From Amblyomma americanum (Eukaryota; Arthropoda; Arachnida; Ixodida; Ixodidae), in the NCBI RefSeq assembly GCF_052857255.1, contig NC_135497.1:542614207-542678206 (forward strand): 64,000 nucleotides of DNA, written 5' to 3'. The number at the start of each line of letters is the position of its first letter. The first letter of the stretch is position 1. Shown in pieces: positions 1,031 through 51,623 of the stretch. Below the pieces are notes generated by a model. The model did no database searches and was not told the origin of the DNA. It saw nothing but the letters and a program-made list of their open reading frames with translations. The position numbers and the translations under genes were made by a program.

Positions 1031-1136
1031 CTGATGATGATTATGATTTAAAGATATGTCTGGCGAGGTCACGTGCTGATTTGGCGGCGTTGTAGGCGTG
1101 ACGCACGCAGCCAGGTTCGTGACTTCATCAAGCTCT

Positions 1137-1412
1137 TTATGAAGGTTCTTTTGCTAATAGTCCGCTCCGGGATGACCAAGCAGAGAAACCTGGGTTAGAC
1201 AGAAGAAGGGTGCGTAACGCCACATGCCTCGGCCTGATGTGTGGAGCCGATTCAACCATAACTTTTATCTCAAAACCCTGCGGCCTCAAGGAGAGAGACT
1301 GTGCAGGTATCGCCGGATGGATACCATCACATTCGAGTATGGAATGTTCAATTTTTTCTGCAGATCTGCCAAACACATCATATGTGTCGTCTTCTTGGCT
1401 GAAATTGAAACT
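1137..1412 (-). pseudogene. LINE C-terminal relic, left-arm copy
   Basis: The minus-strand frame contains an EKIEHSILECD motif followed by roughly 50 residues, resembling the cysteine/histidine tail found after the reverse transcriptase of many non-LTR elements (pattern ETxEHxLLxC). The right arm holds the same relic on the plus strand at about 51,240-51,500, reading ETIEHFLLKCD. It lies directly against an old SINE copy in both arms, so LINE fragment and SINE were already together before the duplication. No other part of this LINE is recognisable nearby, so the clade is not assigned. Confidence 0.5.
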
Positions 1413-2015
1413 CGTTTTGGGAGAAGGAAATGGTGCAGTATCTGTCTCACATATCAGCGGACACCTGACCCGTGCCGTAAGGGAAGGGATAAAGGAGGGA
1501 GTGAAAGAAAGGAAGAAGAGGTGCCGTAGTGGAGGGCTTCGGAATAATTTAGACCACCTGGGCATATTTAACTGCCCCGCCGCGGTGGCTCAGTGGTTAG
1601 GGCGCTCGACTACTGAACCGGAGTTCCCGGGTTCGAACCCGACCGCGGCGGCTGCGTTTTTATGGAGGAAAAACGCTAAGGCGCCCGTGTGCTGTGCGAT
1701 GTCAGTGCACGTTAAAGATCCCCAGGTGGTCGAAATTATGCCGGAGCCCTCCACTACGGCACCTATTCTTCCTTTCTTCTTTCACTTCCTCCTTTATCCC
1801 TTCCCTTACGGCGCGGTTCAGGTGTCCAAAGATATATGAGACAGATACTGCGCCATTTCCTTTCCCCAAAAAACCAATTATTATTATTATCATATTTAAC
1901 GTGCACTGATATGGCACAACACACGAGCATCTTAGCGTTCCCCTCTATCAAAACGTGGCCACCGCGGTCGGATTCGAACACTGGTACTCTGATCAGTAGC
2001 AGGAGTACCCGGGTT
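1413..2015 (-). repeat. Old tRNA-derived SINE, split by a younger SINE (left arm)
   Basis: Two halves of one minus-strand SINE lie at 1,413-1,572 (3' part, ending in the pyrimidine-rich and ACTGCACCATTTCC-like tail region) and 1,891-2,015 (tRNA-like 5' part with a GGTTCGAA-type B box). They are separated by a complete plus-strand copy of the same family. The right arm has the uninterrupted version at about 50,970-51,240. The family resembles the tick SINE Ruka from memory; that name is inference. Confidence 0.8.
1573..1890 (+). mobile_element. Full-length tRNA-derived SINE (Ruka-like), left arm only
   Basis: The head carries an A-box-like GTGGCTCAGTGGTTAGGGC and a B-box-like GGTTCGAACCC, the internal RNA polymerase III promoter of tRNA-derived SINEs. 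It is followed by the family body and a short TTA-repeat tail. It is flanked by perfect 10 bp target-site duplications, CATATTTAAC at 1,563-1,572 and 1,891-1,900. The target was an older copy of the same SINE in the opposite orientation. The right arm is empty at this point, so insertion followed the inverted duplication. The Ruka label is recollection, not a database match. Confidence 0.92.
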
Positions 2016-2380
2016 CGAACACAGGTTTTCCAAGTTCGTGCGTTCAAGGCACCCTGCTTAAAAGAGCAGGGCGCTGCCTCTAAAGTTATCATAGAACCAT
2101 TCCTTCCTGCTCTGCCGTTTTCAATTTCGATATAGCTCACACACTCTTTTTCTACTCAGCTATTCCAGTTTTAATCTTCGGCATGTGTTACTTGTTCTTT
2201 AATGCTCTTTATTTCTCCGTCCTTGTGTCCTGCCTGTTTACTGGTTATCTTCCTAATTCTTTTCCGCTATTCAGAGACGACGCTCTTTCTGTATAATTAT
2301 TTAAAAATCGTAGCTGCACATCTATTATGGTCGCATTTCATCAAGCCCTTTCAAAATTATATTTTACTCTGAGCTTCCCG
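2016..2380. other. Unassigned arm sequence
   Basis: This is shared with the right arm at about 50,640-50,965. No convincing frame, SINE box or terminal repeat was seen. It lies between SINE and LINE relics and may be eroded LINE. Confidence 0.4.
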
Positions 2381-3860
2381 CGCTTCGAAATATGCCCAGG
2401 CCACATTTCACTGTACTGCCTAGTTTTTGGTTTTGCTGTGAGCATCAAGAGCTAATCTTGCAACAGCTCTCTGATTTACTTCTAATCTCGACTCAACATC
2501 TGCCGTTAAACACAAAACCGCGTTATCGAAAGAAAGAACCGGCATCGTCATATATTTCGAAATACCTCTCAGTAATTCATTTTTCTTCTGCCCCCATAAT
2601 GCCTATGTTTCATTAACCCGGCATTTCTGCACCCTTTTGCCCTAATAGACTGTTCGTCGTTTCCGTGCATATAAAACCTTCGTTTGCCCATACCCCGAGA
2701 TATTTGTATTCGGCCACCATGAGGATTTCATGGCTTTGTACTGTAAGCACGTGATCAGTTGTATCGTTTTAAATCAGCACATCTGACGTAATCACAAAAA
2801 ATCTGTCCTAGGGCGTCTCCTTCGTCTTCACAACGAACCAGAGTTTACAAATATTCCTGACCATCTGCTAAGAGTACAATATCACCCGCATGCATTAAAC
2901 CGGGGAGCCCTTGCTCAACTACTTTTCCGCGTGTTATATATGTGACAGATTACACACTGATTACACATCATAAAAAGCACGAACTGCAGAAATGATACAA
3001 GACAAACATGTCCTAATCATCTCTGCACGTCTACAGTTGTACTTTTTATCCATTTTTATGCAATTTAAACTTAATAATGTTGGTATATGTCCTGTAGGAA
3101 ATTATATATTTGACAGCCGGGGAGGCTCTGTGGTTACAGCGCTCATCTGCTGACCCAAAAGATGTGGGTTCGGTCCCGGCCGTGACAGTGGAATTTCGAT
3201 GGAGGCGAAATTGTATTGGTCCGAGTTATGTGCGGTGTCGTTGCGAGTGAAAGAACTTCAGGTGGTGGAAATTTCTGGAGCCATTCAATGCGGTGTCCCT
3301 CATAGCCAGAGTCGCTTTGGATCGTTAAATTCGCATAAACCATAGTCAATCATTTCATGACCGATACTTTCATCTTTTAGCATGTTCCACACGAGTTCCG
3401 TGAGCACGTTGTCGTATGCACCGATTATGTTCAGGAAGGCTAAATACAGAGGTTTGTTTTCCGCCTTGGCTGTTTCTGTGAATTGGGTAGGCATGAACAG
3501 GCGATCATCTGAGCGCCTACCCCTTCTGAACCCGTTCTGAAGTGCTCCAAGAACCTAATTGCTTTCTAACCATGTCTGCATTTTTAATTTCTCTGCCTGC
3601 ATTGCCAGCAGCCTGTATATAACAGATGCTATCGCAATATTTGTGAAGGCTTTTATGTGCATACAAACTACTTGTCCTTTACAAAACAGATTCATTCTAC
3701 TATTCCCCCAGCTGCAAAAAGTTTGCTTATTTCTCATGACTGTTTCCAAGGCTTTATCAACATGATAACTGGAAAACACCGACCCTTGGCACCCAGCGCC
3801 GCGATGAATAAGTTCATAATTGTGTCTTAGAATATTCCACAGTTGCCTCAAAATTAAAAC
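2380..3860 (-). pseudogene. LINE reverse-transcriptase relic, left-arm copy, interrupted by a SINE
   Basis: On the minus strand, 3,851-3,555 and 3,494-3,300 encode pieces resembling a non-LTR reverse transcriptase, including a GALQNGFRRGRR segment and PLYLAFLNIIGAYDNV, which matches the family pattern around the first catalytic aspartate (FLDIxxAYDxV). After the SINE at 3,113-3,306 the relic resumes: around 2,900-2,850 a segment reads LPGLMHAGDIVLLADGQE, equivalent to the YADDIVLLA catalytic box, with Gly in place of the first Asp. Many stops are present. The right arm has the same relic on the plus strand at about 49,140-50,640. The motifs identify a LINE RT; the clade is uncertain. Confidence 0.7.
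3113..3306 (+). repeat. tRNA-derived SINE, second family, left-arm copy
   Basis: The head has GGCTCTGTGGTTACAGCGC (A-box-like) and GGTTCGGTCCCGG (B-box-like), followed by a body ending near 3,306 inside the LINE RT relic. It differs from the Ruka-like copies in its tRNA head and body. The same insertion is at 49,675-49,868 in the right arm, so it predates the duplication. Confidence 0.75.
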
Positions 3861-4589
3861 TCATGTTCAAGAAAGTGGACTTGTGCGGGCATGGGAAAAT
3901 TTAAGTGGAAAAAGAATCACGGTGATGTGGGATTCCAATTAAATCCTTATATCACCGCATCTCTCTTCGTGGATAAAAAAAACAGTATATCACCTTACGC
4001 GCATGCAATAATAATACATGCAATTATAAAGATATTGCTACTCAAAAACTTTCCTCGCATGAATACTGCCGATTCGCCATGTGTGCTCCGCGATGTTTGT
4101 TAAGTAACGGCGCCTCTTGTTTACAGAAGCCCTTCTTGTCTAGGCAGATCATCACCTTTAGAAATATGCACTGGGTACCTAATCAGAACTGCGCGGTCAC
4201 GATCGTGCAATCCTTGCAGTACAGCTTGGAAACTTCCTGCCCCTGTGAACATTATTTCCTGCTGGCACCAGAAAACCCAAGCAATGACCCTTAGCAGTTC
4301 CTTTAAGATCTTTAGGTGCTCCTTTAAGTTCATGAATGGCAGTTTACCTATATCCCGCAAGATAAAAGTGTACCATCGCGATGGAAAGTAACGCGAACAG
4401 CGCGTCGTTTACGCGCTCGGCTGTTCGAATTTCTGCTGATCGCGGTTTTGCCCGGCAGGTAAAATAAAGACATTAAAGTCGCCTTAGAATGCATCACGGA
4501 CGACTCTAGCATCTTTTTGCTAATACAAATTTAAAAGCCTGATGAAAAAAAATGCGAAAAAGGGAGCGCCTAGGATCCGCTCTGTTCGC
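3861..4589. other. Unassigned arm sequence
   Basis: Shared with the right arm at about 48,421-49,139. Short open frames occur on both strands but none shows a domain or is convincingly conserved in frame between the arms. Confidence 0.4.
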
Positions 4590-5065
4590 GGTTCTTTCCA
4601 TCGCCCCTGTACAACAGCTGGATCTTACCAGTGCTCCTACGGGGCAGAAACTTGGAAGCTAACGAGAAGGGCTTAACTTAAGTTAAGGACAACGTAACGA
4701 GCCATAGAAAGAAAAAAGATAGGGGTCACGTTGAGAGACCGGAAGAGGACAGGGTGGGTGAGGGAAAAAATGCGGCTTTATTACATTTTATCGAAATAAA
4801 GAAGAATAAATGGGCTTGGGCAGGGCATGTCATGCGAAGGCAAGATAACCGCTGATCCTTAAGGGTAGCGGAGTAGTTTCCAGGAGAAGGCAAGCGTAGC
4901 AGGGGCCGGCAGAAGGATAGGTGGGCGGATGAGATTAGGAAGTTCCCAGGCGTTGCGTGGGCGAAGCTGGAAAAGAGAGGGCTAATTGGATACATTTGGG
5001 AGAGGCCTTTCCTCTGCAGTTTTCTTGCTCATGCTGATGATGGTGATGGTGATGAAAAGATCTCA
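4590..5065 (+). pseudogene. RTE-like LINE 3' end, left-arm copy
   Basis: The plus strand encodes, with several stops, the C-terminal end typical of RTE/BovB-type LINE polyproteins: KKNKWAWAGHVMRRQDNR (4,800-4,855), then RSRGRQKDRWADEIRKFPG (about 4,890-4,950). A tail of ATG/GTG-type repeats follows near 5,030-5,060. No endonuclease or RT core remains upstream, so this is a heavily 5'-truncated copy. The right arm carries it on the minus strand at 47,895-48,420. Clade assignment follows from the WAGHxxRRxDxR and GRxxxRWADEIR patterns known in RTE elements. Confidence 0.75.
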
Positions 5066-6295
5066 TCATCCAAACATCCATGCGGAAGCGCTCCTAAGAT
5101 AACGGATCGCCTATCTCCTTAGGGAGCAAACATCAATGTAAGAGGGGTTGCAAGATGCACTTTTAAAGGAACACGCAAAAAACTACAATTTTTTTGGTAT
5201 TGTTGAGAGAATACTTTAGTTCGGATTTGCGGGCTTGTCTGCGTTTCTTCGGAACGAAAGATAAATTAATTAAAAAGGAAGAAAATTTTTCCCTCTGCTC
5301 TGTGTCAAACTATAGGGACTCTCTTTTTATATGCAATACACGAAAAGTGACGTGAACCAACGGAAACGCGGACTCTTTGATTGTTGGCGGCGAGCGGTGC
5401 GGCCTACCAGCAGCTGAAATGAAAGTTACCGACGGCCGGTGGTTGAAGGCATCAGCCGTCGATACCGTGGCTTTGTTTACGTTTACACCTGCGTTAAGAT
5501 GAACCCCGTTCTCGATCTTGAGAAAGAATTTCTCTCGGAGAAGTCCGGCCGGCCCTTTACCGACCTCAGGTCCACGGATCATGCGATGCTTTTGAGGGCT
5601 GAGGCATCATGACTGCCTGGACATCAATAATGTTCGAGTGGCGAGCTAAGTCGGCAGTGTGGGCAGCAAACCAAGCTACCGGTGCGGCAGCTGTCATCGC
5701 CGAGCCACCGTAGCGAATGATGAGTAGACACTGGTACGCACTAACATCTTTGAATTACGTAATAACAGTCCTCGTATCACTAGTTATGCAGCCCATCGTA
5801 TTGGTACAATCACGAAGCGAACACTCCGAACGGTGCGTTTGCTGACGATGTCTTCTGCAACATCGGCATGACATAGGTGTTTTCCCCTGCCTTCTCTGAA
5901 TAGTAGCTGTGATAATAAATACTCCCATTTATACCTGCGGGACGCTTCCCTCACGAGTAATCAGGTTAGCGTTGGTAAAGACTTCTTCCTAGTATGGCGC
6001 TGTCGCAGTATGTTCGCGTAGCTTGGCTGGGAGCGCCACAAACGGAGGCACGAAGGCGCGCGCACTGCTCTGTACCATATGGTAAACTAGCCACCACAAA
6101 ATGCCTCGCAGGAGCGTGGCGGGGCATGAACTTCGTTCGAGGAGCACTTAGAGGGGAACTTGGAATTTCTCTGCTGCTCCGCACTTGCAAATCGAGGCAC
6201 GTAAAAAACGAAACCACGTGGTCACACAAAGCGCATAGCTGGGAACGCCGCGAAGCACCAAATCATACAGAGACGGAACTGGCCACCTGTGGCGC
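5066..6295. other. Unassigned, weakly diverged arm sequence with small open frames
   Basis: This is shared with the right arm at about 46,685-47,895, with only a handful of mismatches per 200 bp by eye near 5,600-6,000. A 121-codon plus-strand frame (5,994-6,359) is kept in the right arm as 111 codons (46,956-46,621, minus), with a frame difference at its start. It has no recognisable domain and an equally open shadow on the other strand, so I do not call it a gene. On the minus strand near 5,935 is a TATAAAT box in a plausible promoter setting, preserved in the right arm near 47,044. Confidence 0.4.
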
Positions 6296-7214
6296 CAACA
6301 AGTATGGCTTTCTTTGGCTTCCAACATTCAGATTGCCTTCATTTCGTCTTTTTGTGTAACGAAAGCGCACAAGCGGTACGGTGGCTAGATAAGTAGGTGT
6401 GCCGAGAGGCATGGGATAGAGCGTTGTTCCGCGCGCCTCCGCGCGGCGCTCGGGTGCGGATTGTTTGCTACGCGCCGCATTTGCATTTAGCTTTTCCCTC
6501 GCCTGGGTTTTGGCCCAAAACTTTACTTTTTTTGTTAACTATCTCTGGCCACTACCTATGAGGGAGATATTCACTATTTGGCAACGAAACGCTAATGGTA
6601 AGGCAAAGCAACTGCTTTATCTGCTTCTGCTTCCGTCAGCTATAACGCAATGCAGTTTGCAATGGACCTAGTGCTTTACGGTAAAAATGAAAAAAGAAGC
6701 TTATAGCAAGCTGGCATCCGTCGTGGAAGGGGCCTGAATTTTCATATTTCTGTGCTGTGGTGTCCCAAATTGTTTTGCAAATTCGAGTTGACCGTCATCT
6801 GGCCAAGTAGGTACTGCAGTCCGCTTTTGTGCGTTAATGCTACTTGGAGCACCAGTACGTACGACACATTTGTCATTGATGGTAATGCTCTTACGCTATC
6901 AAAATCATTTTTTTCGTGGCACGCTATCCAGCGTAGATGGAATGGGGAGTGCTAGCGTTTTTTTGGAAGGCAGCACTTCCGTTCTAGCTGTGACCGCGGC
7001 CACATGACAGCCTGCGTCAACATGGAAGCCTCCTACTCAAACCTGCTGCTGCAAATGGCCCCTTCGCGACTGCTTGCACGTTCGCTCTCTCGGTTAGAGT
7101 GCAAACCATTTAGGCGAGTTTGCATGGCCACTTGGCTATTTTCCGCGGAGCGGCGTTTCCCAAGGAATTAAAATAAGGGGAGAGTGAGAAGGAGGAAGTT
7201 TTAAAGTAGAAAAA
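6296..7214. repeat. Identical block shared by both palindrome arms, left copy
   Basis: Reading this stretch against the reverse complement of 45,766-46,684, I found no mismatch over about 0.92 kb, while sequence just outside differs repeatedly (about seven differences in the next 95 bp on the 7.2 kb side). It contains open frames of 68 and 67 codons (6,465-6,671 and 6,752-6,955), which are naturally identical in both arms but show no domain. No LINE, SINE or LTR motif was recognised. Either recent gene conversion between the arms or strong constraint could explain the identity. Confidence 0.8.
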
Positions 7215-8299
7215 AGCGGTACACATTTTAATTTGTGCCATTTATATGCTGCGTAACGTTTAAATTTGTCTCTAACACTCATTAAAAAGATGACAAAAAT
7301 TTCCCGTCGCTTGCAACCAAACGAAATTCGTTAGGAATTTAGGGGGTGCCTTACTTAAGGAACAAAGGTGGGTTGAGGTTGGGCTGAGCGGAAATTACTG
7401 CCCGCGGCTCAAAGGTGCTATATGAGATCGAATGTGAGCAGAATATAGGACCAGATGACAAATCGCGAGTCAGCAAGCTTCAGTCTATCACGAGCTTTCA
7501 TTTCATTCATGGTTATAAGGCCTCCTTCCTTGAAAAAAAAATGGTGCGTGACCAGCGTGAGGAAACGTAGCGCTGAGACGCGCGCTAATCTGCATGGACA
7601 CGTAAGTCGTTACTTCACTGCAAGCGCTGATAAACACTCCTATATGTGCATGTATCCATGATTTACTTTGTTCGTTCATTCATTGGCTTCAGTATCGAAT
7701 GTAAGTATAAGTTCGTATTCTATCCATCCCTTCCAATTCGTCAGATCCCTGTGCATTGTGTAAAATGACTAAGCGTGCGCTTCCTTAAAATGCATGGAAT
7801 ATGGTTACATGATACTGCAGACAATTTCAAAGAAAAACTATTAAAAATTGCCGCAATATGGCTTTTGAACTTTCCTCAAGGTGGAGCTTTATATCACACA
7901 TTAGTGAAGGGGAAATTGATACTACACCTACGGCCGAGCTTAACGGGTCAGATATTCCAAACTCTGCATCCCTGCAAGTATAATATGCACACGTCTCTGT
8001 CTTTTTTCCTTGTGCATTTTACTCACCATAAGGTCATATACGCAGTAATATCGATAGCAATACTGATGTGTATTGGCTTCATATATGCATAGCAAAGGGC
8101 GGAGGAAACGGGCGCGAAGCGGTCTTTCAACGGTTGCGCCACCGCTGCGTCATGAAAAAAAGGCGCGTGCTTCCCACACGGGTCGGCACACCTAGCCATC
8201 TAGACATGATACTAAGGGTTTCAAAGCAGAACTTACTTCAATATCCAGACGCGAAATCTTCGTTTGTCACCTGCAGATTTCCCTGATGACGTGAAAAAT
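7215..8299. other. Unassigned arm sequence
   Basis: Shared with the right arm at about 44,710-45,765. Short frames, for example 7,775-8,092, are not domain-bearing. AT-rich; no terminal repeats seen. Confidence 0.4.
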
Positions 8300-8530
8300 A
8301 AAAGTCACAAAATACAACGGACAAGAGAAGGAGTGTTCACGCCACAACGACTGGACTATCAAGTGTGATTTATTAGGCAGAGCATAGTCCCAGCAAAGCC
8401 AGCAGAGCATGCGCAACAGCCGCATCACAACTCACAGCGCATAGGGCACACAAGATACACATCTACCGTGACCGGCCTAAGAAAGCGAATTCCCTCTCGA
8501 GTAAGCGCACCGAGGTTGTGCTAATGCAAT
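8300..8530 (+). repeat. Possible Penelope-like element terminal fragment (left arm)
   Basis: The segment beginning GACAAGAGAAGGAGTGTTCAC and running through CAACGACTGGACTATCAA resembles, from memory, terminal sequence common in tick Penelope-like elements. No reverse transcriptase or GIY-YIG frame is attached. The same segment lies in the right arm at about 44,450-44,690 on the minus strand, so it predates the duplication. Low confidence: recollection only. Confidence 0.3.
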
Positions 8531-8659
8531 CCTGACCTGAAAAACTGATATGGTATGCTTCCAAGATTTCTCGCTTTATTTTCCCTTGCCTCTACCAAGG
8601 CTCTCTTTCTACCGGTCAGTCGCTCGCTACTTTCGGAAGATAGCGGAACTCGGACGCGC

Positions 8660-11640
8660 CGATCGCCCTATGAGGTGTGAGGGAAGGAAAAAAGGGAAAG
8701 AATCAGCGTAAACCGCGACTCCTGTCCAGACAGCCCTCATCAAAAATATTCCCGTCGCCACGTGGAAGACCTTCAGCGAAACCTTGGGCAGTGATAATTC
8801 GACTCACAATAGGTCTATCTCCACTACTAAAGTCAGGCAGTGGTTTGAGGCACCCTGCATTACAGACGGGGCCAAGCATCACGAATACGTGGACAGAGGG
8901 GAACCTTTTCAGTGCATAGGTGAACGGAGCAAAGCAGTAAAAAGAGCACACAATGACGCCCCAAACGATGTTACAATGCACCCCGTAAGTGCCAGCCGCG
9001 GAGAGGTACCTTCTCCAGCTGTGAGAGGCTAGGCGGATGCTAATCCGGAGATAGTAAAAATAGCGCCTAAGTTGCTCCCTTCGGCTAACGCTTGTTTCCA
9101 TATCCACAGAAGACCAGGATCATGCCGGCCACATCTCCTAGGAAGACTAAAAGGATTTCTGCAAATCACTGCAAGGCACCCTGGGGACCTAAGGTACAAG
9201 GGTGACTTTACGCAGTCTAATAGACCTCACAACTTGTAGTTCTACTTCGAACTGAACACTCAAAAAGAAGGCATATCTCTCCTAGAGACGATGCAGCTTT
9301 GCAGAATGCGTTCTGAGCCAAATAAGCAGGATCATACGTTCCGCGGCGCATAATACAGTACACGGAAACGAGCAACGAGGAACTGGACGCGCCCATTATC
9401 CCAGCTGAAACCCACGCTGCAGCGTGCTCAGCCACCCGCTACACAGCCGCTGGCGCGGAAAAATCACCAACGGAATTATTAGAAATCTGAGCAAAGCCCA
9501 AACACATATTCTCACAAGATACATCAACGATGCCCTGTGGAAAGTATCAGAAGGCCAGGCAGAGTCTAAACACAGAAATGATTAGAGTCCTCAAACCAGG
9601 CAAACCACCCAGCCCGGAGGCTGTCAGGCCTACCTCTCTTACCTCCTGTTAGGGGAGCTGAATGAACGCATCATTCAAACCCGTCTCCAAATTTATTCGA
9701 AGATAATGATAACTTCGCTCCCTCCTTCTAAATGAAAAAGTATTACAAAACATTCCACGTCGTAGAGTACACTTATCTTGGCCGTGGATCTCAAGGATGC
9801 CTTCGACAACGCCTCGAATGAAGCCATTCTCCTGAAGCTAAAGACCATTGGATGTGGCGTATAAACTTTCTACTACATCGCGCCCTGTCATAGCGACCGC
9901 ACGGCCACCCTTGGCCAGGAACAAGTGCGCTCAGCAACGGGACACATGCGCAACAAAGGCAGAAAGGCAGCCCCTCCCCTCCCTGGCTCGATTATCTCCC
10001 TATTACTCTTCAATATCGCTATGATCAGCATGGCCACAGGTCTCGACATAATTCTAGACATCAGATATACTTTGAATGCAGAATAAATCACAATCATTAC
10101 AACTAAAGGCTCCTTCGCCACTAAAGAAGGAACCTTGCAGATAGCGGCTATAAGTGTCGAAAGCCTGGCAGCAAGATGTGGTATCCGATATGCGCTGGAG
10201 AAATTCTAAATCTTTCGCATCATAGGACAAGCATACAAATTCCCGGGTGTGCTCGATGTGCTGTTCGATGGTTCCCTAATAAGACAAGACTGTCTCCTAC
10301 GCATCCTGAGGCTTTGGATTAAAAGGAATAGAAAGGCAAAATATAAGCTACAGCGCCTCCACTCTGCAATTCAACAAATCGCTTCCATGATCAAATGGGT
10401 ACACAGAACCCGCAAGAGAATGCGTCAGGAAGACACCAATACAGGGCCTAGCAATGATTAACCCATCGAATGGACTCCCATACCTCACCCTGCTTAAAGA
10501 AGAAATCAGCAAAGAGAACGCGATCATCCACATGGCCTACAGACAAGCTATCGGCCTCCTTGTTTACACATCCAACGAACACCTCGACGTCAACGGCTTC
10601 ACCATCACCTTCGCCGTGGTCCGAGAAGCTGTCCTCTCCTCACAGAAAGACTATTCGCCACTAAAGCCTGAAGATCCATTCTAGAATGAAGTGACACATC
10701 AGCAGACATTCGGCAAGTACATGACAGTCAGGACCAGGACATCGACACAAATCTTTGCTCTGGCATTCAGGTGACGCTTCTGCCAAACAAACATACAGCG
10801 GGATAATACGAAGACGAAAAAATTGCACGAATACATTACATGCGCCGCACTAAACGACAAACCAAGAAGCGCCGTGTATGTAGTCCCCGCAACACACCCC
10901 AACTCTACGATAGTAGTTGCATTTGTCCTAGACAACAACTATACAGAAATTTCCAGCGCCTTCATCGCAAAAAGTACCCATACTGCAGTCGAAACAGCTG
11001 CAATGGCGCTAGCGATTCAATATGGCGACGCCTCGGACAAATACCTCAAAGTTGTGACAACTCAAATTCTGCGAGTCGGCTCTTCCTCTCAGGCAGCATT
11101 CCCAAATCAGTGGCATCCCTGCTCAACACTAAGCGCCCTCACACGTCTACCAAAAAAGCACCAAATCACTTCCACACCTGAGCACGACGGGCTTGAGGGA
11201 AATGAGGCAGCGAAAAGGCATGCTCGAGGTTGCACTAGCCGAGCCGATTAAGACAATAAGGTCTCCTACGTCTCCCCTACATGCGAAGAAAGACTACTCG
11301 TCCGACGAATGCAGACACAAGTATAACCACTCTCGCACCGTAAAGTAAACCATGGAGAGGCTAGGCATTGCGCAGATTACAAACCTACACTTTCCGAAAC
11401 GTAATTAAATTTGATGTTACCTTTTGAGATCGCAATGACGGGATTGCGCTTCTGGTGGCTAGACTGCCACCACATACTACGCAATATAATAGATGTTCTG
11501 ACAACAAACCCCCGAATTACATATACACACCACTAGGAGGAAATGCTCAGAACTGGCGAGCCAACGCGCACTGGTGTCCCAGGCTAGAGCGACAGCGATG
11601 GCCTTTGGTATCGTGAACTAAGCATTCCACCAGCATGTTC
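8660..11640 (+). pseudogene. Decayed I-like LINE (RT and RNase H relic), left-arm copy
   Basis: Scattered frames on the plus strand spell out an eroded non-LTR polyprotein. Near 9,780-9,850 AVDLKDAFDNASNEAILLK matches RT motif A (Asp in a VDLxxAFD setting). Near 9,960-10,130 is the region of motif B and a decayed YADE catalytic box. Near 10,855-11,215 are RNase H-like pieces, including SSAFIAKSTHTAVETAAMA and a final HDGLEGNEAAKRHA (pattern HxGxxGNExAD). Stops and frameshifts are abundant. Clade resemblance is to the RT-RNase H LINE at 41,751-44,417, which inserted next to the right-arm copy of this same relic. Right-arm counterpart: 38,560-41,700, minus strand. Confidence 0.72.
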
Positions 11641-14600: not shown

Positions 14601-14750
14601 CCTGCCGTCAACGCAGAGCGCGTGACGAGATTTTCTACACGTGTGCCAGGGCGATTACATTTTTGTCACCTGCAAGGTGGCCGCCTAGCAACCACGTCAC
14701 CACTTGTAAAGACCACGCGTGACTGTGCAAGTGAAGGCATTTTCTACATC
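11641..14750. other. Unassigned arm sequence, about 3 kb
   Basis: Matches the right arm at about 34,990-38,560 (minus strand, interrupted there by a SINE). Frames up to 137 codons occur on both strands, but the arms do not preserve one of them preferentially and no domain is visible. A TG-rich patch near 12,600-12,640 is minor. This may be unique host sequence duplicated with the arms, or unrecognised old repeat. Confidence 0.4.
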
Positions 14751-16674: not shown

Positions 16675-16985
16675 TTGTTTTTGGGGAAAGGACATGGCGC
16701 AGTATCTCTCCCATATACCTTTGGAAGCCTCTACCGCGCCTTAAGGAAAGGGATAAAGGAGGGAGTAAACGAAGAGAGGATGAAAGAGGTGCCGTAGTGG
16801 AAGGCTCCGGAATAATTTCTACTACCTAGGGATATTTAACGTGCACTGACATCGCACAGCGCACGAGCGCCTAAGTGTTTTTCCTTAAAAAAAAACGCAG
16901 CCGCCGCGGTCGGGTACGAAGCCGGTAACTCCGGATCAGTAGCCGAGCGCCGTAAACACCGAACCACCGCGGCGGGTAATGTGTA
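16675..16985 (-). repeat. Ruka-like SINE, innermost copy of left arm
   Basis: A complete-looking minus-strand SINE: tail side GTTTTTGGGGAAAGGA near 16,678, tRNA-like head (CCGCGGCGGG complement) at 16,960-16,978. The right-arm counterpart is at 18,773-19,083 on the plus strand, so it predates the duplication. Target-site duplications resembling GTATAGTATAATT/GTATATTATAATTTG are seen on both sides. Confidence 0.8.
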
Positions 16986-17023
16986 TATTATAATTTGGTC
17001 ACATTCATTTGGACACCAACGCC

Positions 17024-18738: not shown

Positions 18739-18772
18739 GTCCACTGACCCAGTGACCAAATTATGCTATACA

Positions 18773-19721: not shown

Positions 19722-19723
19722 AC

Positions 19724-21382: not shown

Positions 21383-21393
21383 TCTCTCCCCCC

Positions 21394-36818: not shown

Positions 36819-36830
36819 GCCACTGAAATA

Positions 36831-37269
<439 letters not shown>

Positions 37270-38559
37270 GCCACTGAAATACAGTTGAAATTATTTTGAG
37301 TACTGTCTGTAAATTTTGTTTTGATTTTTTATTGCTTTTCTTCAATTATTTTATTGATATCTTCTTTATTTCAGAGATTTTTAAGAACAGTCACTGGATG
37401 AATTAAAAAAAAATTATATTTTGCACACCTACTGCACCGGAAGGCCCATGTCGATGCAATTCGCGCGTACATTTCCTGAAGCAAGAAATGGAGGCAACCA
37501 GTGCTCACACTTTAACATTGCAAGCTCGTGCTTATGTAGTGCTCAAAACATTCAGAAGAGGATGATATGCACACGCTCACACGCAAACACACGCATACAT
37601 ACAAAGCCCTCTCATTTCACATTATGGAACAGCTTGCAGACGAGGCTTATATACTCCTCTACAAAGTCTGCCCATCGATTCAGGTGATGAACTGCCAATC
37701 ATCAGTTATCTAAATTATTGTTGTCACTATTGGTCTATATTATTTCCCATAAAATTAATCAAGTTCACATGCGATGTTTTCTTGGTTGAATACCACGATT
37801 TCTTCAAGAACACCAAAATAAAAGCAATAGTAAGAGCCGCGTATCTACGAACGCAACGTAAGCTTGAGGGTGTATTGAAGTATCAGTACTTTTCTTTCTT
37901 GTGAAAGGGAGAGCTTGAGCGGCTTACTAGTGTATTTACAGGCGCTGCGTTCTCCTAGAGCGTAAGTACAGACCATAAGTACAGAAAGAGTAACACTCAG
38001 GCCACATCAGGCGCGTCTAGATTAGGCCTACTTTACATAAGCTAGGGTCAGCTACATCACCATCCGCATAATTGAATCCCTACAACATCTACTCAACAAA
38101 TGTGCTCAAGTATATCGTTTTGAAGTAGCCAAAAGTATTGTCGAAAAAATTCAATTACTGCTGAATTGACATAAAAAACCGCTAGCAAAAGCTAAAAAGG
38201 ATATAAATGAAAAATAAATGCTAAATTTTGTATTGGAGTGCTTCGACTGCCGAGAGCATGGCGTCGTTTGACGTGCGCAAGGAGCAGAGGTAACCCTGAT
38301 GAAGGTAGCTGAAGGGAGGCCGCCGGTGGCGAGGAGCGCTGGAGATAGGGCACAAAAAGTGACAACGGTTACGCCTACTAAATCGCAGAATTTAGCAACA
38401 GCTTGCGTAAACGATGTCACCTTTTCTTTTTTCAAAATTGTGCCTGTTACATCATCACCATCACCGTAACAACGCCCACTGCGGGATAATTGCCTCTATA
38501 TCTCACCAAGCAATCCTGTCCTGTTGTTGGTGTTCGAAACCATTTTTCACAAAGCAGGA

Positions 38560-41500
38560 AGAGAGAGGAAATACTGCACATGCTGGTGGAATGCTTAGTT
38601 CACGAACCCAAAGGCCATCGCTGTCGCTCTAGATTGGGACACCATTCACGCTGGCTCGCCAGTTCTGAGCTTTTCCTTCTATTGGTTTGTATGTAATTCG
38701 GGTGTTTGTTGTCAGAGCATCTGCTATGTTGCGTGGTATGTGGTGGGATTTTAGCCACCACAAGCGCAAACCCGCCATTGCGATCTCAAAAGATAACATC
38801 AAATTTAATTACGTTTCAGAAAGTGTAGGTTTGTAATCTGCGCAATGCCTAGCCTCTCCCTGGTTTACTTTACGGTGTGAGAGCGGGTAGACTTGTCTCT
38901 GCATTCGTAGGATGAGTAGTCTCTCTCCCTATGTGGAGGAGACGTAGGAGAGCTCACTGTCTTAATCTGCTCGGCTATTGCACCGTCGAGCATGCCTTTT
39001 CGCGGCCTCATTTTAAATTCCCTCGAGCCCCTCGTGCCCAGGTTTGGAAGTGATTTGTTGCTTTTTGGAAGTCGTGTGAGGGCGCTTAGTGTTGAGCAGG
39101 GACGCTACTGATTTTGGGAATGCTGCCTGAGAGGAGGAGCCGACTCGCAGAATTTGAGGTTCACAATTTGGAGGTATTTGCCCGAGGCGTCGCCATATTG
39201 AAACGCTAGCGCGATTGCAGCTGTTTCGATTGCAGTATGGGTACTTTTTGCGATGAAGGCGCTGGAAATGTCCGTATAGTTGTTGTCCTGGATTGCAAAA
39301 GGCAATGCGTACTTTTCCCATATATTCTGAAAGGAAGCGTTCATTTTGTGCACACACCGCATATTTCCTTTTTTGTACAACTAAGACAATTGCAACTACT
39401 ATCGTAGAGTTGGGGTGTGTGGCAGGGACTACATACACGGCGATTCTTTGTTAGTTGTTGAGTGCGGCGCATGTAATGTATTCCTGCCATATTAGGGTCT
39501 TCGTATATATCCCGCTGCATGCTTTTGGCAGAAGGGTCACCTGAATGCCAGAGCAGATTGGTGTTTATGTCCTTGTCCTGGGTGTCATGTACTTGCCGGT
39601 TGTCTGCTGATGTGTCAATTCATTCTAGAATGGCTCTTCAGGCTTTAGTGGCGAATAGTCTTTCTGTGAGGAGAGGACAGCTCTCGGACCACGGCGAAGG
39701 TGTTGGTGAAACCGTTGACGTCGAGGTGTTCGTTGGCTGTGTAAACAAGGAGGCCGATTGCTTGTCTGTAGGCCATGTGGATGATCGCGTTGTCTTTGCT
39801 GATTTCTTCTTTAAGCAGGGTGAGGTATGGGAGTCCATTCGATGGGTTAATCATTGCTAGGCCTTGTATTGGTGTCTTCCTGACGCATTCTCTTGCGGGT
39901 TCTGTGTACCCATTTGATCATGGAAGCGATTTGTTGAATTGCAGAGTGGAGGCGCTGTAGCTTATATTTTGCCTTTATATTCCTTTTAATCCAAAGCCTC
40001 AGGATGCGTAGGAGACAGTCTTGTCTTATTAGGGTACCATCGAACAGCACATCGAGCACACCCGGGAATTTGTATGCTTGTCCTATGATGCGAAAGATTT
40101 AGAATTTCTCCAGCGCATATCGGATACCACATCTTGCTGCCAGGCTTTCGACACTTATAGCCGCTATCTGCAAGGTTCCTTCTTTAGTGGCGAAGGAGCC
40201 TTTAGTTGTAATGATTGTGATTTATTCTGCATTCAAAGTATATCTGATGTCTAGAACTATGTCGAGACCTGTGGCCATGCTGATCATAGCGATATTGAAG
40301 AGTATTAGGGAGATAATCCAGCCAGGGAGGGAGGGGGGGCTGCCTTTCTGGCTTTGTTGGGCTTGTGTCCCGTTGCTGAACGCACTTGTTCCTGGCCAAG
40401 GGTGGCTGTGTGGTTGCTATGACAGGGTTCGATGTAGTTGAAAGTTTATACGCCACATCCAATAGTCTCTAGCTTCAGGAGAATGGCTTTATGCGAGACG
40501 TGGTCGAAGACATCCTTGAGATTTACGGCCAAGATAAGTGTACTCTACGACATGGATTGTTTTGTAATACTTTTTAATTTAGAAGGAGGGAGCGAAGTTA
40601 TCATTATCTTCGAATAAATTTGGAGACGGGTTTCAATGATGCGTTCATACAGCTTCCTCTAACAGGAGGTAAGAGAGGTGGGCCTGAGAGCCTCCGGGCT
40701 GGGTGGTTTGCCTGGTTTGAGAACTCTAATTATTTCTGTGTTTAGACTCTGCCTGGCCTTCTGATACTTTCCATAGGGCATCGTTGATGTATCTTGTGAG
40801 AATATGTGTTTGGGTTTTGATCACATTTCTAATAACTCCGTTGGTGATTTTTCCGCGCTTGCGGCTGTTTAGTGGGTGGCTGAGCGCGCTGCAGCGTAGA
40901 CTTCAGCTTGGATAATGGGCACGTCTAGTTCCTCGTTGCTCGTTCCCGTGTACTGTATTATGAGCTGCGGGACGTATGAGCCTACGTATTTGGCTCAGAA
41001 CGCATTCTTCAAAGCTTCATCGCCTCCAGGAGAGATATGCCTTCTTTCTGAGTGTTCGGTTCGAAGTGGAACTAAACGTTGTGAGGTCTATTAGAATGCG
41101 TAAATTCACCCTGGTACCTTAGGTCCCCAGGGGGCCTCGCAGTGATTTGCAGAAATCCTTTTAGTCTTCCTAGGAGATGTGGCCGGCATGATCTTGGTCT
41201 TCTGTGGATATGGGAACAATCCTTAGCCTAAGGGAGGAACTTAGGCGCTGTTTTTACTATCTCAGCATTAGCATCCGCCTATCCTCGCACAGCTGGAGAA
41301 GGTACCTCTCCGCGGCTGGCACTTACGGTGTGCATTGTAACTCCGTTTAGGGCGTCATTGTGTGCTCTTTTAACTACTTTGCTCCGTTCACTGATGCACT
41401 GAAAAGGTTCGCCTCAGTCGGCGTATTCGTGATGCTTGGCCCCGTCTGTAATGCAGGGTGCCCCAAGCCACTGCCTGACTAGAGTAGTGGAGGTATGCCT

Positions 41501-41749: not shown

Positions 41750-41915
<166 letters not shown>

Positions 41916-42089
41916 AAAACTTTATTGAGCGAGTTAGTTTTAGAACCAGCGGGGTCCCTGGGCCACTCCGCAGTTCCGCACTGCATCAAGTAGGTCATGC
42001 CGGGACATGACGTCGGCAGCCCGAGTCACCGCAGCAAGCTGCGATGTCGGGTCTGCAGACATAAGCACGACCTCCCAGTCCTCCCAGCT

Positions 42090-44417
42090 CTAGATGGCGT
42101 GCTGTCCCCGCGGGGTAGGGTCGGCAGGGCAGCCGAAAAGGATATGTGAGAGTGTGGCGTGGGGGTCACCGCATAGGGAGCATGCAGGGGATGTGCCGCA
42201 ATAGTGGGATAAAAGCTGAGGGGATGACAGAGAGCGGGTCTGGAGGCGTCCTAAGAGGATCTGTTGGGAGTGCGTAATACAGGGGTGGGGAGGAGGGTAA
42301 GTCCGACGGTCCAAACGGGGTATTTGCGTGAGCTCCGCAAAGGTGTGCGCCCGCTCCCTCGAGAATCCTGGATCGAGACGGTCCTGAGCCCGGCAAATCA
42401 AACCTCGGGCCAATTTATCGGCAGCCTCGTTTCCAGGGTTCCCAGAGTGAGCCGGCACCCACTGAAGCTCTACCCTGCGCGGTAAATTTTGGGCAGGGGT
42501 GTTGAACAATTGCCAGGCAGGGGCGTGAATCCTTCCTCTGGCAGAGTTGGACAGAGCCGTTTTGGAGTCGCTGAAGATGTATTGGGCCTCTGAATGTGCA
42601 AGGGCTAGGGCGATGGCGGTCTCCTCTGGCTCCTCAGTCGTAGAGCCCGAGGGAAGACGGTGAGTTAGGGGGTGAGGTAGGGTTGGATCGTAGGCAACTG
42701 CTACTGTTTCATGCGCTGTACACGCGGCGTCTACCCAAACGGCATCGTGGGCCTGCCCATAATACTTATGGAGGGCATTAGCGCGAGCTACGCGGCTAGG
42801 GATGTGATATTGGGGATGGACGTTTCGAGGAAGAAGTTTCACATGGAGAGGTGCATGGATGTGTCGAGGGAGGGCTATAAGGGTTGACTGGTTAGCGGGT
42901 AGGTTGATGCGAAGGGAGGAGAGTATATGGCGGCCAGTGGCGCTCCTGGCAAGTCTAAGGTACTGTGTCTGAAGGTGCGCGTCAACTAGTTCCTGAATGG
43001 TGTTATGCATGCCTAGTGTAAGAAGTTTGGGTGTGCTAGTACTACGAGGTAGGTTAAGGGCTACCTTAGTGGCAAATCGGATCATTGCGTTCACGCGTTC
43101 GGTTTCCGTGCGGTTCAATTTGAGATATGGGGTTGCGTATAGAATGCGGCTAAGCGTAAATGCATGCACTACTTTCATGTTGTCCGTTTCGTCTAAACCC
43201 TTGTTAAGGGAGGACACTCGCCGTAGAAGGTGCAACACGGATTGCGTGGAGGCCATGAGTCTTTTAAGGGTGTGTTCATTTCGTCCAGAATCTTGCAAGT
43301 GGAGGCCAAGAATGCGGAGGGCGGGTGCGATGGGGATAGGGGATCCTTTTAAATTAATTTGGATGGGCGAGTTAGCGCCAGATTTTGGCCTAATTAGGAA
43401 GAGCGCGGACTTAGATGGGGAACATTCGAGCCCGATGGATGACACGTGAGAGGAGATGGTGTCTGCTGCTAATTGAAGAGTTTCCTCAATTTCACCGTCA
43501 GAGCCACGAGTGGTCCATGTGGTAATATCATCAGCGTACAGGGTATGCTGTAGGTGTGGGATTAGAGCCAGTTTGTGAGCTAAGGGGATGAGAGCAACGT
43601 TAAAGAAAAGGGGAGAAAGGACCGCCCCTTGAGGGGTTCCGAGCTCTCTGAGTGTATAAGGGGATGTGGTAATCTGATCTATGTGCAGGGAGGCGGTGCG
43701 GCCCGAGAGAAACGCGCGAGCGTAGTTGTAGGTTTTAGGGCCTACCTGTAGAGCCTGCAGTTCCCGTAAGATGGCATCGTGTCGAATTCTGTCAAATGCC
43801 TTGGTGAGGTCAACTGCCAGGATAGCTTTAGTGCGGTGGGGGATGGTATCATCAAGCACGTCATGCGTAATTTGAAGTAGGGCGTCCTGCGCAGATAGAT
43901 GCGCACGAAAGCCGAGCATATTGTGGGGGAAAAGGTGGTTCTCTTCCATGTACGTTGTTAGCCGAGCAAGAATTATGTGCTCGAAGACCTTGCCTAGACA
44001 GGATGCAAGAGAAATGAGCGGATGTTGTCTAGGGTGATAGGCTTGTGAGGTGTTGGAATAAAAATTTTTTCCATGCTTCCACGGGGCAGGGAGAGTACCT
44101 GCCTCCCAACATTCGTTAAAATAGTTGACTAAGTCAGAGATGGAAGCATCGTCAAGATTTCTGATAGCTGCATTGGTAATTTGATCATCTCCGGGAGCGG
44201 TATTCCGTAACTTCAAAAGGGCGGCGCGAAATTCCGATTCGGTAATAAGGGCGTCAAGCTCGGGCTGGGGTGGGCCTGCATAATCAGGATACTTGCAAGG
44301 GAGACCGAGGGTTGTATAGGTGCATTTCACCTGGGTGAGGAAGGCGTCGGTATCCTGTCGATGGTTGTGAGCGAGGCGGCGAATGCTAAGGCGCGTCTGA
44401 GATTTGGATTGCGTGTG
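42090..44417 (-). CDS. LINE polyprotein fragment: reverse transcriptase, RNase H, zinc tail
   Basis: One open frame of about 775 codons. An ATG at 44,421-44,423 is flanking DNA, so it is not the native start. RT domain, roughly residues 90-400: PAPWKHGKN, AILAVDLTKAFDRI (motif A), LGTPQGAVLSPLFFNVAL (motif B), LYADDITTW (catalytic box near 43,545-43,520). RNase H around residues 575-690: FSDSKTALSNS and WVPAHSGNPGNEAADKLA. The C-terminal zinc-like motif CSLCGDPHATLSHILFGC follows. The frame is cut by TAG at 42,090-42,092; the same frame then continues for about 48 codons to 41,940, matching in position the C-terminus of the (TTCC)-tailed LINE. So there is one nonsense mutation in an otherwise intact frame. 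The order RT then RNase H fits the I group. Confidence 0.92.
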   Translation of the reverse strand, partial: HTQSKSQTRLSIRRLAHNHRQDTDAFLTQVKCTYTTLGLPCKYPDYAGPPQPELDALITESEFRAALLKLRNTAPGDDQITNAAIRNLDDASISDLVNYFNECWEAGTLPAPWKHGKNFYSNTSQAYHPRQHPLISLASCLGKVFEHIILARLTTYMEENHLFPHNMLGFRAHLSAQDALLQITHDVLDDTIPHRTKAILAVDLTKAFDRIRHDAILRELQALQVGPKTYNYARAFLSGRTASLHIDQITTSPYTLRELGTPQGAVLSPLFFNVALIPLAHKLALIPHLQHTLYADDITTWTTRGSDGEIEETLQLAADTISSHVSSIGLECSPSKSALFLIRPKSGANSPIQINLKGSPIPIAPALRILGLHLQDSGRNEHTLKRLMASTQSVLHLLRRVSSLNKGLDETDNMKVVHAFTLSRILYATPYLKLNRTETERVNAMIRFATKVALNLPRSTSTPKLLTLGMHNTIQELVDAHLQTQYLRLARSATGRHILSSLRINLPANQSTLIALPRHIHAPLHVKLLPRNVHPQYHIPSRVARANALHKYYGQAHDAVWVDAACTAHETVAVAYDPTLPHPLTHRLPSGSTTEEPEETAIALALAHSEAQYIFSDSKTALSNSARGRIHAPAWQLFNTPAQNLPRRVELQWVPAHSGNPGNEAADKLARGLICRAQDRLDPGFSRERAHTFAELTQIPRLDRRTYPPPHPCITHSQQILLGRLQTRSLSSPQLLSHYCGTSPACSLCGDPHATLSHILFGCPADPTPRGQHAI

Positions 44418-45765
44418 AAGCATACCATATCAGTTTGTCAGGACAGGATTGCATTAGCACAACCTCGGTGCGCTTACTCGAGAAGGAATTCGCTTTCTTA
44501 TTCGGGTCACGGTAGATGTGTATCTTGTGTGCCCTATGCGCTGTGAGTTGTGATGCGGCGGTTGCGCATGCTCTGCTGGCCTTGCTGGGACTATGCCCTG
44601 TCTAATAAATCTCAGTTGATAGTCCAGTCGTTGTGGCGTGAACACTCCTTCTCTTGTCCCTTGTTTTTTGTGACTGTTTTTTTTTAACTTATCAGGGAAA
44701 TCTGAAGCTGACAAACGAAGACCTAGCGTCTGGATATTGAAGTAAGTTCTGCTTTGAAACCCTTAGTATCATGTCTAGATGGCTAGGTGTGGCGACCCGT
44801 GCGGGAAGCACGCGCCTTTTTTTCATGACGCAGCGGTGGCGCAACCGTTGAAAGACCGCTTCGCGCCCGTTTCCTCCACCCTTTACTATTCATGTATGAA
44901 GCCAATTCACATCAGTATTGCTATCGATATTACTTCGTATATGACCTTATTTTGAGCAACCTTCACAAGGAAAAAGACACAGACATGTGCATATTATACT
45001 GTCAGGGATGCAGAGTTTGTAATATCTGACCCGTTCAGCTCAGCCGCAGGTGTAGTATCAATTTCCCCTTCACTAATGTGTGATATAAAACTCTACTCTG
45101 AGTAAAGTTCAAACGCCATATTACGGCAATTTTTAATAGTTTTCCTTTGAAATTGTCTGCAGTATCGTGTAACCGTATTCCACGCATTTTAAGGAAGTGC
45201 ATGCTTAGTCAGTTTTCCCGATGCACCGGGATCTGACGAATTGGAAGGGATGGATAGAATACGAACTTATACTTATATTCGATACTGAAGCCTGTGAATG
45301 AACGAACAAAGTAAAGTAAATCATAGACATGCACATATAGGAGTGTTTATCAGCGCTTGCAGTGAAGTAACGACTTAAGTGTCCATGCAGATAAGCGCGC
45401 GTCTTAGCGCTACGTTTCCTCACGCTGGTCACGCACCATTTTTTTTTCAAGGAAGGAGGCCTCATAACCATTAATGAAATGAAAGCTCGTGATAGACTGA
45501 AGTTTGCTGACTCGCGATTTGTCATCTGGTCTTATATTCTGCTCACATTCGATCTCATATAGCACCTTTGAGCCGCGGGCAGTAATTTCCGCTCAGCCCA
45601 ACCTCAACCCACCTTTGTTCCTTAAGTAAGGCACCCCCTAAATTCCTAACGAATTTCGTTTGGTTGCAAGCGACGGGAAATTTTTGTCATCTTTTTAATG
45701 AATGTTAGAGTCAAATTTAAACGTTACGCAACCTATCAATGGCACAAATTATAATGTGTACCGCC

Positions 45766-46684
45766 TTTTTCTACTTTAAAACTTCCTCCTTCTCACTCTC
45801 CCCTTATTTTAATTCCTTGGGAAACGCCGCTCCGCGGAAAATAGCCAAGTGGCCATGCAAACTCGCCTAAATGGTTTGCACTCTAACCGAGAGAGCGAAC
45901 GTGCAAGCAGTCGCGAAGGGGCCATTTGCAGCAGCAGGTTTGAGTAGGAGGCTTCCATGTTGACGCAGGCTGTCATGTGGCCGCGGTCACAGCTAGAACG
46001 GAAGTGCTGCCTTCCAAAAAAACGCTAGCACTCCCCATTCCATCTACGCTGGATAGCGTGCCACGAAAAAAATGATTTTGATAGCGTAAGAGCATTACCA
46101 TCAATGACAAATGTGTCGTACGTACTGGTGCTCCAAGTAGCATTAACGCACAAAAGCGGACTGCAGTACCTACTTGGCCAGATGACGGTCAACTCGAATT
46201 TGCAAAACAATTTGGGACACCACAGCACAGAAATATGAAAATTCAGGCCCCTTCCACGACGGATGCCAGCTTGCTATAAGCTTCTTTTTTCATTTTTACC
46301 GTAAAGCACTAGGTCCATTGCAAACTGCATTGCGTTATAGCTGACGGAAGCAGAAGCAGATAAAGCAGTTGCTTTGCCTTACCATTAGCGTTTCGTTGCC
46401 AAATAGTGAATATCTCCCTCATAGGTAGTGGCCAGAGATAGTTAACAAAAAAAGTAAAGTTTTGGGCCAAAACCCAGGCGAGGGAAAAGCTAAATGCAAA
46501 TGCGGCGCGTAGCAAACAATCCGCACCCGAGCGCCGCGCGGAGGCGCGCGGAACAACGCTCTATCCCATGCCTCTCGGCACACCTACTTATCTAGCCACC
46601 GTACCGCTTGTGCGCTTTCGTTACACAAAAAGACGAAATGAAGGCAATCTGAATGTTGGAAGCCAAAGAAAGCCATACTTGTCG
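45766..46684. repeat. Identical block shared by both palindrome arms, right copy
   Basis: Reverse-complement partner of 6,296-7,214, with paired coordinates summing constantly to 52,980, so no indel separates the two copies. Confidence 0.8.
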
Positions 46685-50640: not shown

Positions 50641-50969
50641 AATGCGACCATAATAGATGTGCCGCTACGATTTTTAAATAATTATACAGAAAGAGCGTCG
50701 TCCCTAAATAGCGGAAAAGATTTAGGAAGCTAACCAGTAAATAGGCAGGACGCAAAGACGGGAAAATAAAGAGCATTAAACGACAGGTAACACATGCCGA
50801 AGTTAAAAACTGGAATAGCTGAGTAGAATTAGAGTGTGTGAGCTATATCGAAATTGAAAACGGCAGAGCAGGAAGGAATGGTTCTATGATAACTCTAGAG
50901 GCAGTGCCCCGGTCTTTTAAGCAGGGTCCCTTAAACGCACGAACTTGGAAAACCCGTGTTTGAACCCCG

Positions 50970-51240
50970 GTACTCCTGCTACTGATTCAGAGTACCAGTG
51001 TTCGAATCAGACCGCGGTGGCCACATTTTGATGGAGGCGAAACGCTAAGACGCTCGTGTGTTGTGCCTTCTCAGTGCACGTTAAAGATGCCCAGGTGGTC
51101 TAAATTTTTCCGAACCCCTCCACTACGGCACCTCTTTCTTCTGTTAGTCCCTCCTTTATACCTTCCCTTACGGCACAGGTCAGGTGTCCGCTGATATGTG
51201 AGACAGATACTGCGCCATTTCCTTACTCCCAAAAGCAATT
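50970..51240 (+). repeat. Old tRNA-derived SINE, intact right-arm copy
   Basis: This is the uninterrupted counterpart of the split SINE at 1,413-2,015. It runs from a degenerate tRNA-like head (B box near GTTCGAATC) through the CAGTGCACGTTAAAGAT segment to the CTGCGCCATTTCC tail. The position equivalent to the left-arm SINE insertion, about 51,080-51,089, is continuous. Confidence 0.8.
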
Positions 51241-51500
51241 TCAATTACAGCAAAGACGACGACACATATGATGTGTTTGGAATATCTGTAGAAACAATTG
51301 AACATTTCCTACTCAAATGTGATGGTATCCATTAGGCGATACAGGCACAGTCTCTCTCCTTGAGGCCACAGGGTTAAGAGATAACCGTTATGGTTGAATC
51401 GGATCCACACACCAGGCCGAGTCATGTGGCGTTACGCACCCTTCTTCTGTCTAACCCAGGTTTTTCGGCTTGGCCACGCCGGAGCGGACTATTAGCACAG
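51240..51500 (+). pseudogene. LINE C-terminal relic, right-arm copy
   Basis: Counterpart of the relic at 1,137-1,412. Here the frame reads through ETIEHFLLKCDGIH and is then broken by a stop. It sits between the old SINE (50,970-51,240) and the outer end of the right arm. Confidence 0.5.
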
Positions 51501-51623
51501 CAGCCTTCATATTCATAAAGAACTTGATGATGTCACAAACCTGGCTACGTGCGTCACGCCTACAGCGCCACGAATCAGCACGTGACCTCGCCAGACATAC
51601 CTTTAAATCATAATTATCATCAG

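Follow-up and report, generated by a model that had tools for sequence, protein, structure and literature searches.

A stretch of 64,000 bases from the tick Amblyomma americanum (contig NC_135497.1, positions 542,614,207-542,678,206), hereafter the window, carries a large imperfect palindrome that extends beyond the left end of the window. We consider this palindrome to be probably an old and decaying inverted segmental duplication that lies inside a local cluster of duplicons and has been partly homogenised by ectopic conversion. An inverted segmental duplication, or low-copy repeat, consists of two long inverted copies of more than 1 kb that are about 90% or more alike and do not originate as a single transposon. 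In length and likeness the arms of the tick palindrome agree with this, being 93.7% identical over 15,603 aligned columns, with certain sub-blocks slightly below 90%. The palindrome is therefore best placed within an established class of genome duplications, of which it is an uncommon instance, and does not represent a new class.

Extent and structure of the palindrome

Comparison of the window with itself yields eight inverted collinear blocks, in which positions 1,027-17,002 pair with the reverse complement of 51,627-18,752, with 982 mismatches in 15,603 ungapped aligned columns (6.29%), a similarity far above chance. These blocks bear out the large, old and imperfect palindrome that an earlier note on this DNA had described. 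The coordinates proposed there for the arms (1,031-17,023 and 51,623-18,739) are accurate to about 20 bases, and the loop of about 1.7 kb, then placed at 17,024-18,738, lies at 17,003-18,751 in our comparison. The outer end proposed at 1,031/51,623, by contrast, proved to be the insertion site of a long interspersed nuclear element (LINE), and the homology resumes to the left of the window.

This continuation was predicted from the window itself: positions 1-1,030 resembled the 5' part of a minus-strand LINE, and the left arm was therefore expected to go on past the window. The prediction was confirmed in 60 kb fetched on either side, with inverted matches examined within -60,000 to 124,000 in window coordinates. 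Left of the window, -7,530 to -4,905 pairs with 52,365-54,939 (284 of 2,563 columns mismatched, 11.1%), and the outermost homology pairs -21,094 to -19,241 with 54,926-56,785 (145 of 1,853 columns, 7.8%). The true outer ends are at -21,094 and 56,785, so that the palindrome occupies about 77.9 kb of the 560,970,318-base contig that carries it (positions 542,593,112-542,670,991). As assembled, the arms measure 38.1 and 38.0 kb, of which about 20 kb is sequence common to both. A palindrome reaching still farther was ruled out, the more distant inverted matches being either short repeats or copies of transposons, of which some have terminal repeats.

The main parts, in window coordinates, are as follows.

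1,027-17,002 and on to -21,094 outside the window, plus strand: left arm, the only local match found in plus orientation.

17,003-18,751, minus strand: loop, made up of a minus-strand LINE fragment, in which Pfam recognises an RNase H domain and inspection by eye a CCA-rich stretch near 17,110, and of about 110 bp resembling, by eye, the head of a short interspersed nuclear element (SINE).

18,752-51,627, with homology on to 56,785, minus strand: right arm with later insertions, because of which it spans 32.9 kb in the frame of the earlier note.

51,628-56,785, minus strand: outer extension of the right arm, in which 52,365-54,939 and 54,926-56,785 match the left arm outside the window.

A local family of copies

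The genome searches covered the 2.56-Gb assembly (429 contigs), with 40 of 2,994 candidates scored for the query 2,000-3,000 and 40 of 135 for the query 6,298-7,214; the local copy counts are lower bounds. The first query gave at least 41 matches, namely the two arms, seven local matches (81-89% identity, 540.95-543.91 Mb, all on the minus strand, one with an extra short piece) and 31 distant matches (75-77%), which fall on an old dispersed repeat. The second gave at least 50, namely the two arms, nine local matches (79-88%, all minus) and distant ones mostly at 71-78%, with short extra pieces of up to 88% also among the matches. Merged by position, the local matches come to about nine other loci, as a minimum, across 3 Mb of the same contig; the merging was done by the analyst, and two of the loci combine matches 24-31 kb apart. 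The sequence is low in copy number and locally clustered, most of its other matches being dispersed older repeats at 71-78%, and the question left by the earlier note, whether the palindrome is a single locus or one of a family, is answered in favour of a family. Among the eleven sequences the left arm alone is flipped, the right arm and all other local matches found being in minus orientation.

How far the local copies correspond to the full arm was followed in 10-kb pieces of seven copies. Six of these (L021-L026) match the arms only within arm positions 1,977-8,288, dispersed repeats aside, and have common flanks next to positions 1,977 and 8,288 that are absent from the arms; we read these flanks as putative insertions. 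The copy at 541.047-541.075 Mb has gapped homology along the arm from 17,000 to 1,981 and then along the outer arm (51,001-52,100), broken by other sequence. In an extra 18 kb of this copy (541.06 Mb) the homology picks up again in both directions, reaching arm position 17,000 inward and 52,100 outward, with about 2.9 kb foreign to the arms at the outer limit and 2.3 kb, as against 0.3 kb in the arms, at the inner limit. Another 6 kb, from the 543.08 Mb copy, match arm positions 13,604-8,599, with a break that coincides with the inner limit of the 541.06 Mb copy, and the piece at 543.91 Mb, about 80% identical, can be followed outward along the arms as far as 53,140. We infer that the whole unit, and not just its middle, was duplicated at every local locus.

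The same copy at 541.05 Mb (541.047-541.075 Mb) also bears on the junction, as the final 86 bp of the loop (18,666-18,751) are contiguous with the arm in it. Since this copy runs along the right side 86 bp into the loop, this end of the loop is part of the right unit, which places the break at the inner end of the left arm.

In an unrooted tree of nine sequences (2,944 columns), the two arms group together with support 100, as do six other copies, and the longest branch is that of the 543.91 Mb copy. The tree suggests that the two arms are each other's closest relatives among the nine.

Gene conversion between the arms

The differences between the arms are strongly clumped, with a variance-to-mean ratio of 4.5 per 250 columns compared with at most 1.7 in 5,000 shuffles, and the longest identical run is 917 bp, the maximum across 2,000 shuffles being 194. 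A two-state hidden Markov model (HMM) marks 11 short low-difference tracts, which hold 14 mismatches in 3,120 columns (20% of the columns; sums from the HMM rows), and outside them 968 of 12,483 columns (7.8%) are mismatched. The longest identical run is the following feature.

6,298-7,214, plus strand, with partner 45,766-46,682 on the minus strand: gene-conversion tract, 917 bp identical in both arms.

Identity of this kind could in principle be due to constraint, and the local family provides outgroups for this question, in the form of four other copies over one 6.3-kb part of the arm (1,977-8,288). Over this part the arms differ from each other at 244 of 6,298 positions, whereas they differ from the four copies by 11.3-13.3%, and the four differ among themselves by 7.9-10.5%. 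Within the 917-bp tract there are 0 differences in 917 positions between the arms, against 90-105 in 891-916 between either arm and the four copies and 83-102 in 927-954 among the four. The tract is thus identical between the arms yet 10-12% different from four other copies, which rules out constraint as the cause of the identity and identifies gene conversion instead.

Exchange may not be limited to the arms. There are 322 identical bp between the copies at 543.09 and 543.15 Mb and 161 between the right arm and the copy at 542.89 Mb, compared with longest identical runs of 63-106 bp in the remaining 12 pairs (the pair of arms aside), and these outliers suggest weaker signs of exchange between other copies. 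The direct copies at 543.09 and 543.15 Mb (L025 and L026) are 96.7% alike over 1,963 bp and 86-90% alike elsewhere, a pattern that suggests gene conversion between direct copies as well. No GC bias was found over arm positions 1,977-8,288 taken as a whole, a comparison not confined to converted tracts: arm-specific changes were 41 weak-to-strong and 60 strong-to-weak, and shared changes 76 and 89.

Insertions and relative age

That each arm has gathered its own insertions, as had been claimed, is evident from the matching sites: at every insertion site the corresponding stretch of the opposite arm is uninterrupted, to within a few bases. The insertions and the repeats common to both arms are listed below.

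1-1,030 (whole element about -4,866 to 1,030), minus strand: 5' part of a LINE in the left arm, with the 8-bp target-site duplication CTGATGAT on both sides and, in the right arm, an empty site near 51,616-51,623.

1,573-1,890, plus strand: SINE derived from a serine transfer RNA (tRNA-Ser), left arm only, with a target duplication, within an older SINE common to both arms.

16,670-16,976, partner 18,778-19,081, minus strand: old SINE common to both arms, target-site duplication visible.

19,140-30,812, plus strand: Gypsy-type long terminal repeat (LTR) retrotransposon, right arm only, with a 4-bp target duplication (GCAT/ACAT) and an empty site in the left arm at 16,614.

21,252-25,452, minus strand: second Gypsy-type element, nested in the first, its 131-bp terminal repeats identical (0/131 differences).

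31,053-32,959, plus strand: probable Penelope-like element, right arm only, with a reverse transcriptase by Pfam and a stretch that we take, by eye, to be GIY-YIG-like.

33,247-33,627, plus strand: short insertion confined to the right arm, with a perfect (TTCC) array at its end and an empty site in the other arm; probably a truncated LINE.

36,831-37,271, minus strand: SINE with an (AAT) array, right arm only, with a 10-bp target duplication and an empty site in the left arm near 12,920.

39,288-39,380, no strand: 93-bp insertion, right arm only, no element assigned.

41,752-44,416, minus strand: LINE with a (GACA) array, right arm only, with an empty site in the left arm at 8,560.

Farther out, the left arm also carries an 11.7-kb insertion bracketed by the target duplication AGACACAAGCGAGA, with an empty site in the right arm. 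Within the window, the SINE at 1,573-1,890 is the sole insertion in the aligned part of the left arm and the right arm has six; this bias towards the right arm was only apparent, and faded once the left-arm insertions beyond the window had been found.

The insertions also give an order of events. The SINE near the inner end is present in both arms with its target duplication, and therefore predates the inverted pair. The LTRs of the larger Gypsy-type element differ at 15 of 576 positions (2.6%), compared with 7.8-9.3% for unconverted arm sequence, and the low differences here and in the nested element indicate that both arrived after the arms had started to diverge.

The protein of the LINE in the right arm (42,093-44,423) gave 148 matches; among the 120 listed, 32 were named, and 28 of these came from hard ticks (Ixodes, Haemaphysalis, Dermacentor, Rhipicephalus and Amblyomma) and four from crustaceans and pseudoscorpions; the matches with the highest scores were unnamed. 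Tick SINEs derived from tRNA have been named Ruka (PMC3160391). Three long perfect or near-perfect microsatellites stand at the ends of right-arm insertions (TTCC at 33,503-33,631, AAT at 36,827-36,967 and GACA at 41,750-41,915) and look as if they had grown out of retrotransposon tails. Past the end of the palindrome and running beyond the window, a young Gypsy-type element occupies 59,134-66,969, its 1,181-bp LTRs (59,134-60,314 and 65,789-66,969) showing 0 differences in 1,181 positions, and further copies of it, 97-99% alike, lie at -51,085 to -45,282 and 114,120-121,959.

Gene content

Pfam (E 0.01) gave no match in 18 of the 52 open reading frames (ORFs) of the arms or in two ORFs of the left flank, and Rfam found only two tRNA-like SINE heads. 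Two tRNA-Ser genes called by ARAGORN are in fact these same SINEs. The longest ORF kept open in several copies, 5,979-6,356, encodes 126 residues, of which five other copies preserve 104-125 without a stop codon and with amino-acid identities of 84-93%. It gives no indication of constraint on the protein, and a homologue was sought at E 0.001 without success. Some stretches of the arms resemble, by eye, old remnants of LINE coding sequence. On these analyses of unspliced ORFs in the tested part of the arms, within 51,627, no gene was recognised.

Origin of the palindrome

Taken together, it is probable that the palindrome arose in the following way. A transposon-rich duplicon of about 20 kb would have been copied several times over about 3 Mb in a single orientation, and one copy, the left arm, would have ended up flipped beside its closest relative, the right arm. 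Each arm would afterwards have gained its own transposon insertions, with a divergence of about 8-9% where it was not homogenised, while short tracts would have been overwritten by gene conversion, a non-reciprocal exchange acting between the arms and more rarely between other copies, one of these tracts recently enough to leave 917 identical bp.

Several points weigh against this explanation. Nearly the full length of the arm was compared at one other locus (541.05 Mb) and part of it at a second (543.08 Mb), and the reading of the common flanks at 1,977 and 8,288 as insertions has support from both sides at one locus and from one side at the second. The closest relationship of the arms comes from an unrooted tree and assumes a root outside the arm branch, and the join at 17,002/17,003 is taken from the assembly. 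Further, the difference between the arms outside the converted tracts is uneven, with 12.3% in the innermost block (47/382), 7.8% in the outermost and 11.1% in another of the outer blocks, and any single date for the split is therefore only approximate.

Within this explanation, the palindrome might have been born directly, by fold-back or template switching as in the inverted copy-number variants attributed to origin-dependent inverted-repeat amplification (ODIRA; PMC10766186), rather than by tandem duplication followed by inversion. Such a birth is a possibility that we hold only tentatively. The arms are closest relatives and lie next to each other around a 1.7-kb loop, which is the geometry that the ODIRA model predicts (PMC10766186). 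However, no junction signature was seen at the tick palindrome, the 8-bp match immediately inside both loop ends being weak and read by eye, and the model as described there begins with an inverted triplication, of which nothing was seen. In addition, the cluster of direct copies makes the inversion of one unit equally possible.

A more dynamic view of the same cluster, on this very large tick chromosome, is that its duplicons form a field of active exchange: sequence would pass between the flipped unit and its neighbour more than between direct copies, so that orientation or nearness would set the rate of conversion, and the palindrome would persist by means of transposon insertions that break its symmetry. 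We consider this view rather unlikely.

Alternatively, the palindrome could be an assembly artefact, produced by a head-to-head join of two haplotypes or of two units from the local cluster. Clusters of similar copies are where assemblers err, the left arm is the sole flipped copy, and the junction is known from the assembly. On the other hand, the 184 kb surrounding the palindrome (542,554,207-542,738,206) contain no N bases and thus no gap, which speaks against a misjoin in scaffolding, though not against one within a contig. Over most of their length the arms are 6-9% different, and their insertions are distinct, which we judge to be too much for two haplotypes of one locus, and they group together among nine sequences and share the 917-bp identical tract, which is absent from the four copies examined. 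Misassembly at the junction is therefore unlikely.

It is less probable still that the palindrome is a selected ampliconic one, as on mammalian sex chromosomes, with conversion between the arms preserving genes. The earlier note had offered ampliconic and sex-chromosome palindromes for comparison, and the comparison stands for geometry and arm-to-arm conversion: the size is similar (arms of about 38 kb as assembled) and the conversion is real. It finds no further support, as the Pfam searches described above, on 18 of 52 arm ORFs, recognised no gene, and the conversion is patchy, amounting to the 11 tracts and 20% of columns given by the HMM. Moreover, signs of conversion are found between direct copies too, and conversion therefore needs no palindrome.

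Finally, inverted arms around a loop with several related copies nearby might recall the long inverted ends of one giant transposon, of foldback or other type, but this is scarcely credible, since the local matches are all minus except for the left arm, with no second inverted pair among them, the arms contain older repeats, and no target duplication was seen at -21,094/56,785.

Comparison with known systems and significance

The probable inverted segmental duplication described here shares long inverted arms, a short spacer and arm-to-arm gene conversion with the palindromes of the primate X and Y chromosomes, such as the human Y palindrome P8, the arms of which are 38.0 and 37.4 kb long and the spacer 3.4 kb (PMC6790999). 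However, the arms of primate palindromes are more than 99% identical, and P8 carries genes, whereas near-identity is absent along the tick arms, which are mismatched at 6.3% of columns, and no gene was recognised in the part of them tested. GC-biased conversion has been reported for the primate X and Y palindromes (PMC8981503); such a bias is not seen in the tick over the part of the arm for which it was calculated.

Among arthropods, the springtail Folsomia candida has palindromic collinear blocks that likewise represent inverted segmental duplications with a wide range of divergence, 11 of its 15 within-scaffold blocks being palindromes (PMC5490193). As described in the same source, those blocks are defined by genes and belong to a parthenogenetic species, which sets them apart from the tick palindrome. 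The long inverted repeats of Caenorhabditis are also old, with arms that are more alike within a genome than expected (PMC1803023). By contrast with the tick palindrome, which is longer and mostly decaying, they are described as kilobase-sized, lying between genes or including them, and kept in several species (PMC1803023). No tick palindrome turned up in our literature search, most subscription journals being outside its coverage.

Large palindromes are usually studied when they bear genes and are near-perfect, and the tick palindrome is a decaying one in which no gene was recognised. One practical lesson is that the apparent end of a palindrome may be a transposon insertion, with the arm running on past it. 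In addition, the sequence of the tick palindrome recurs, in part or in full, in about nine direct copies elsewhere on the contig, and these serve as built-in outgroups. These make it possible to separate conversion from constraint, and allow inverted and direct neighbours to be compared in a repeat-rich arthropod with a large genome.

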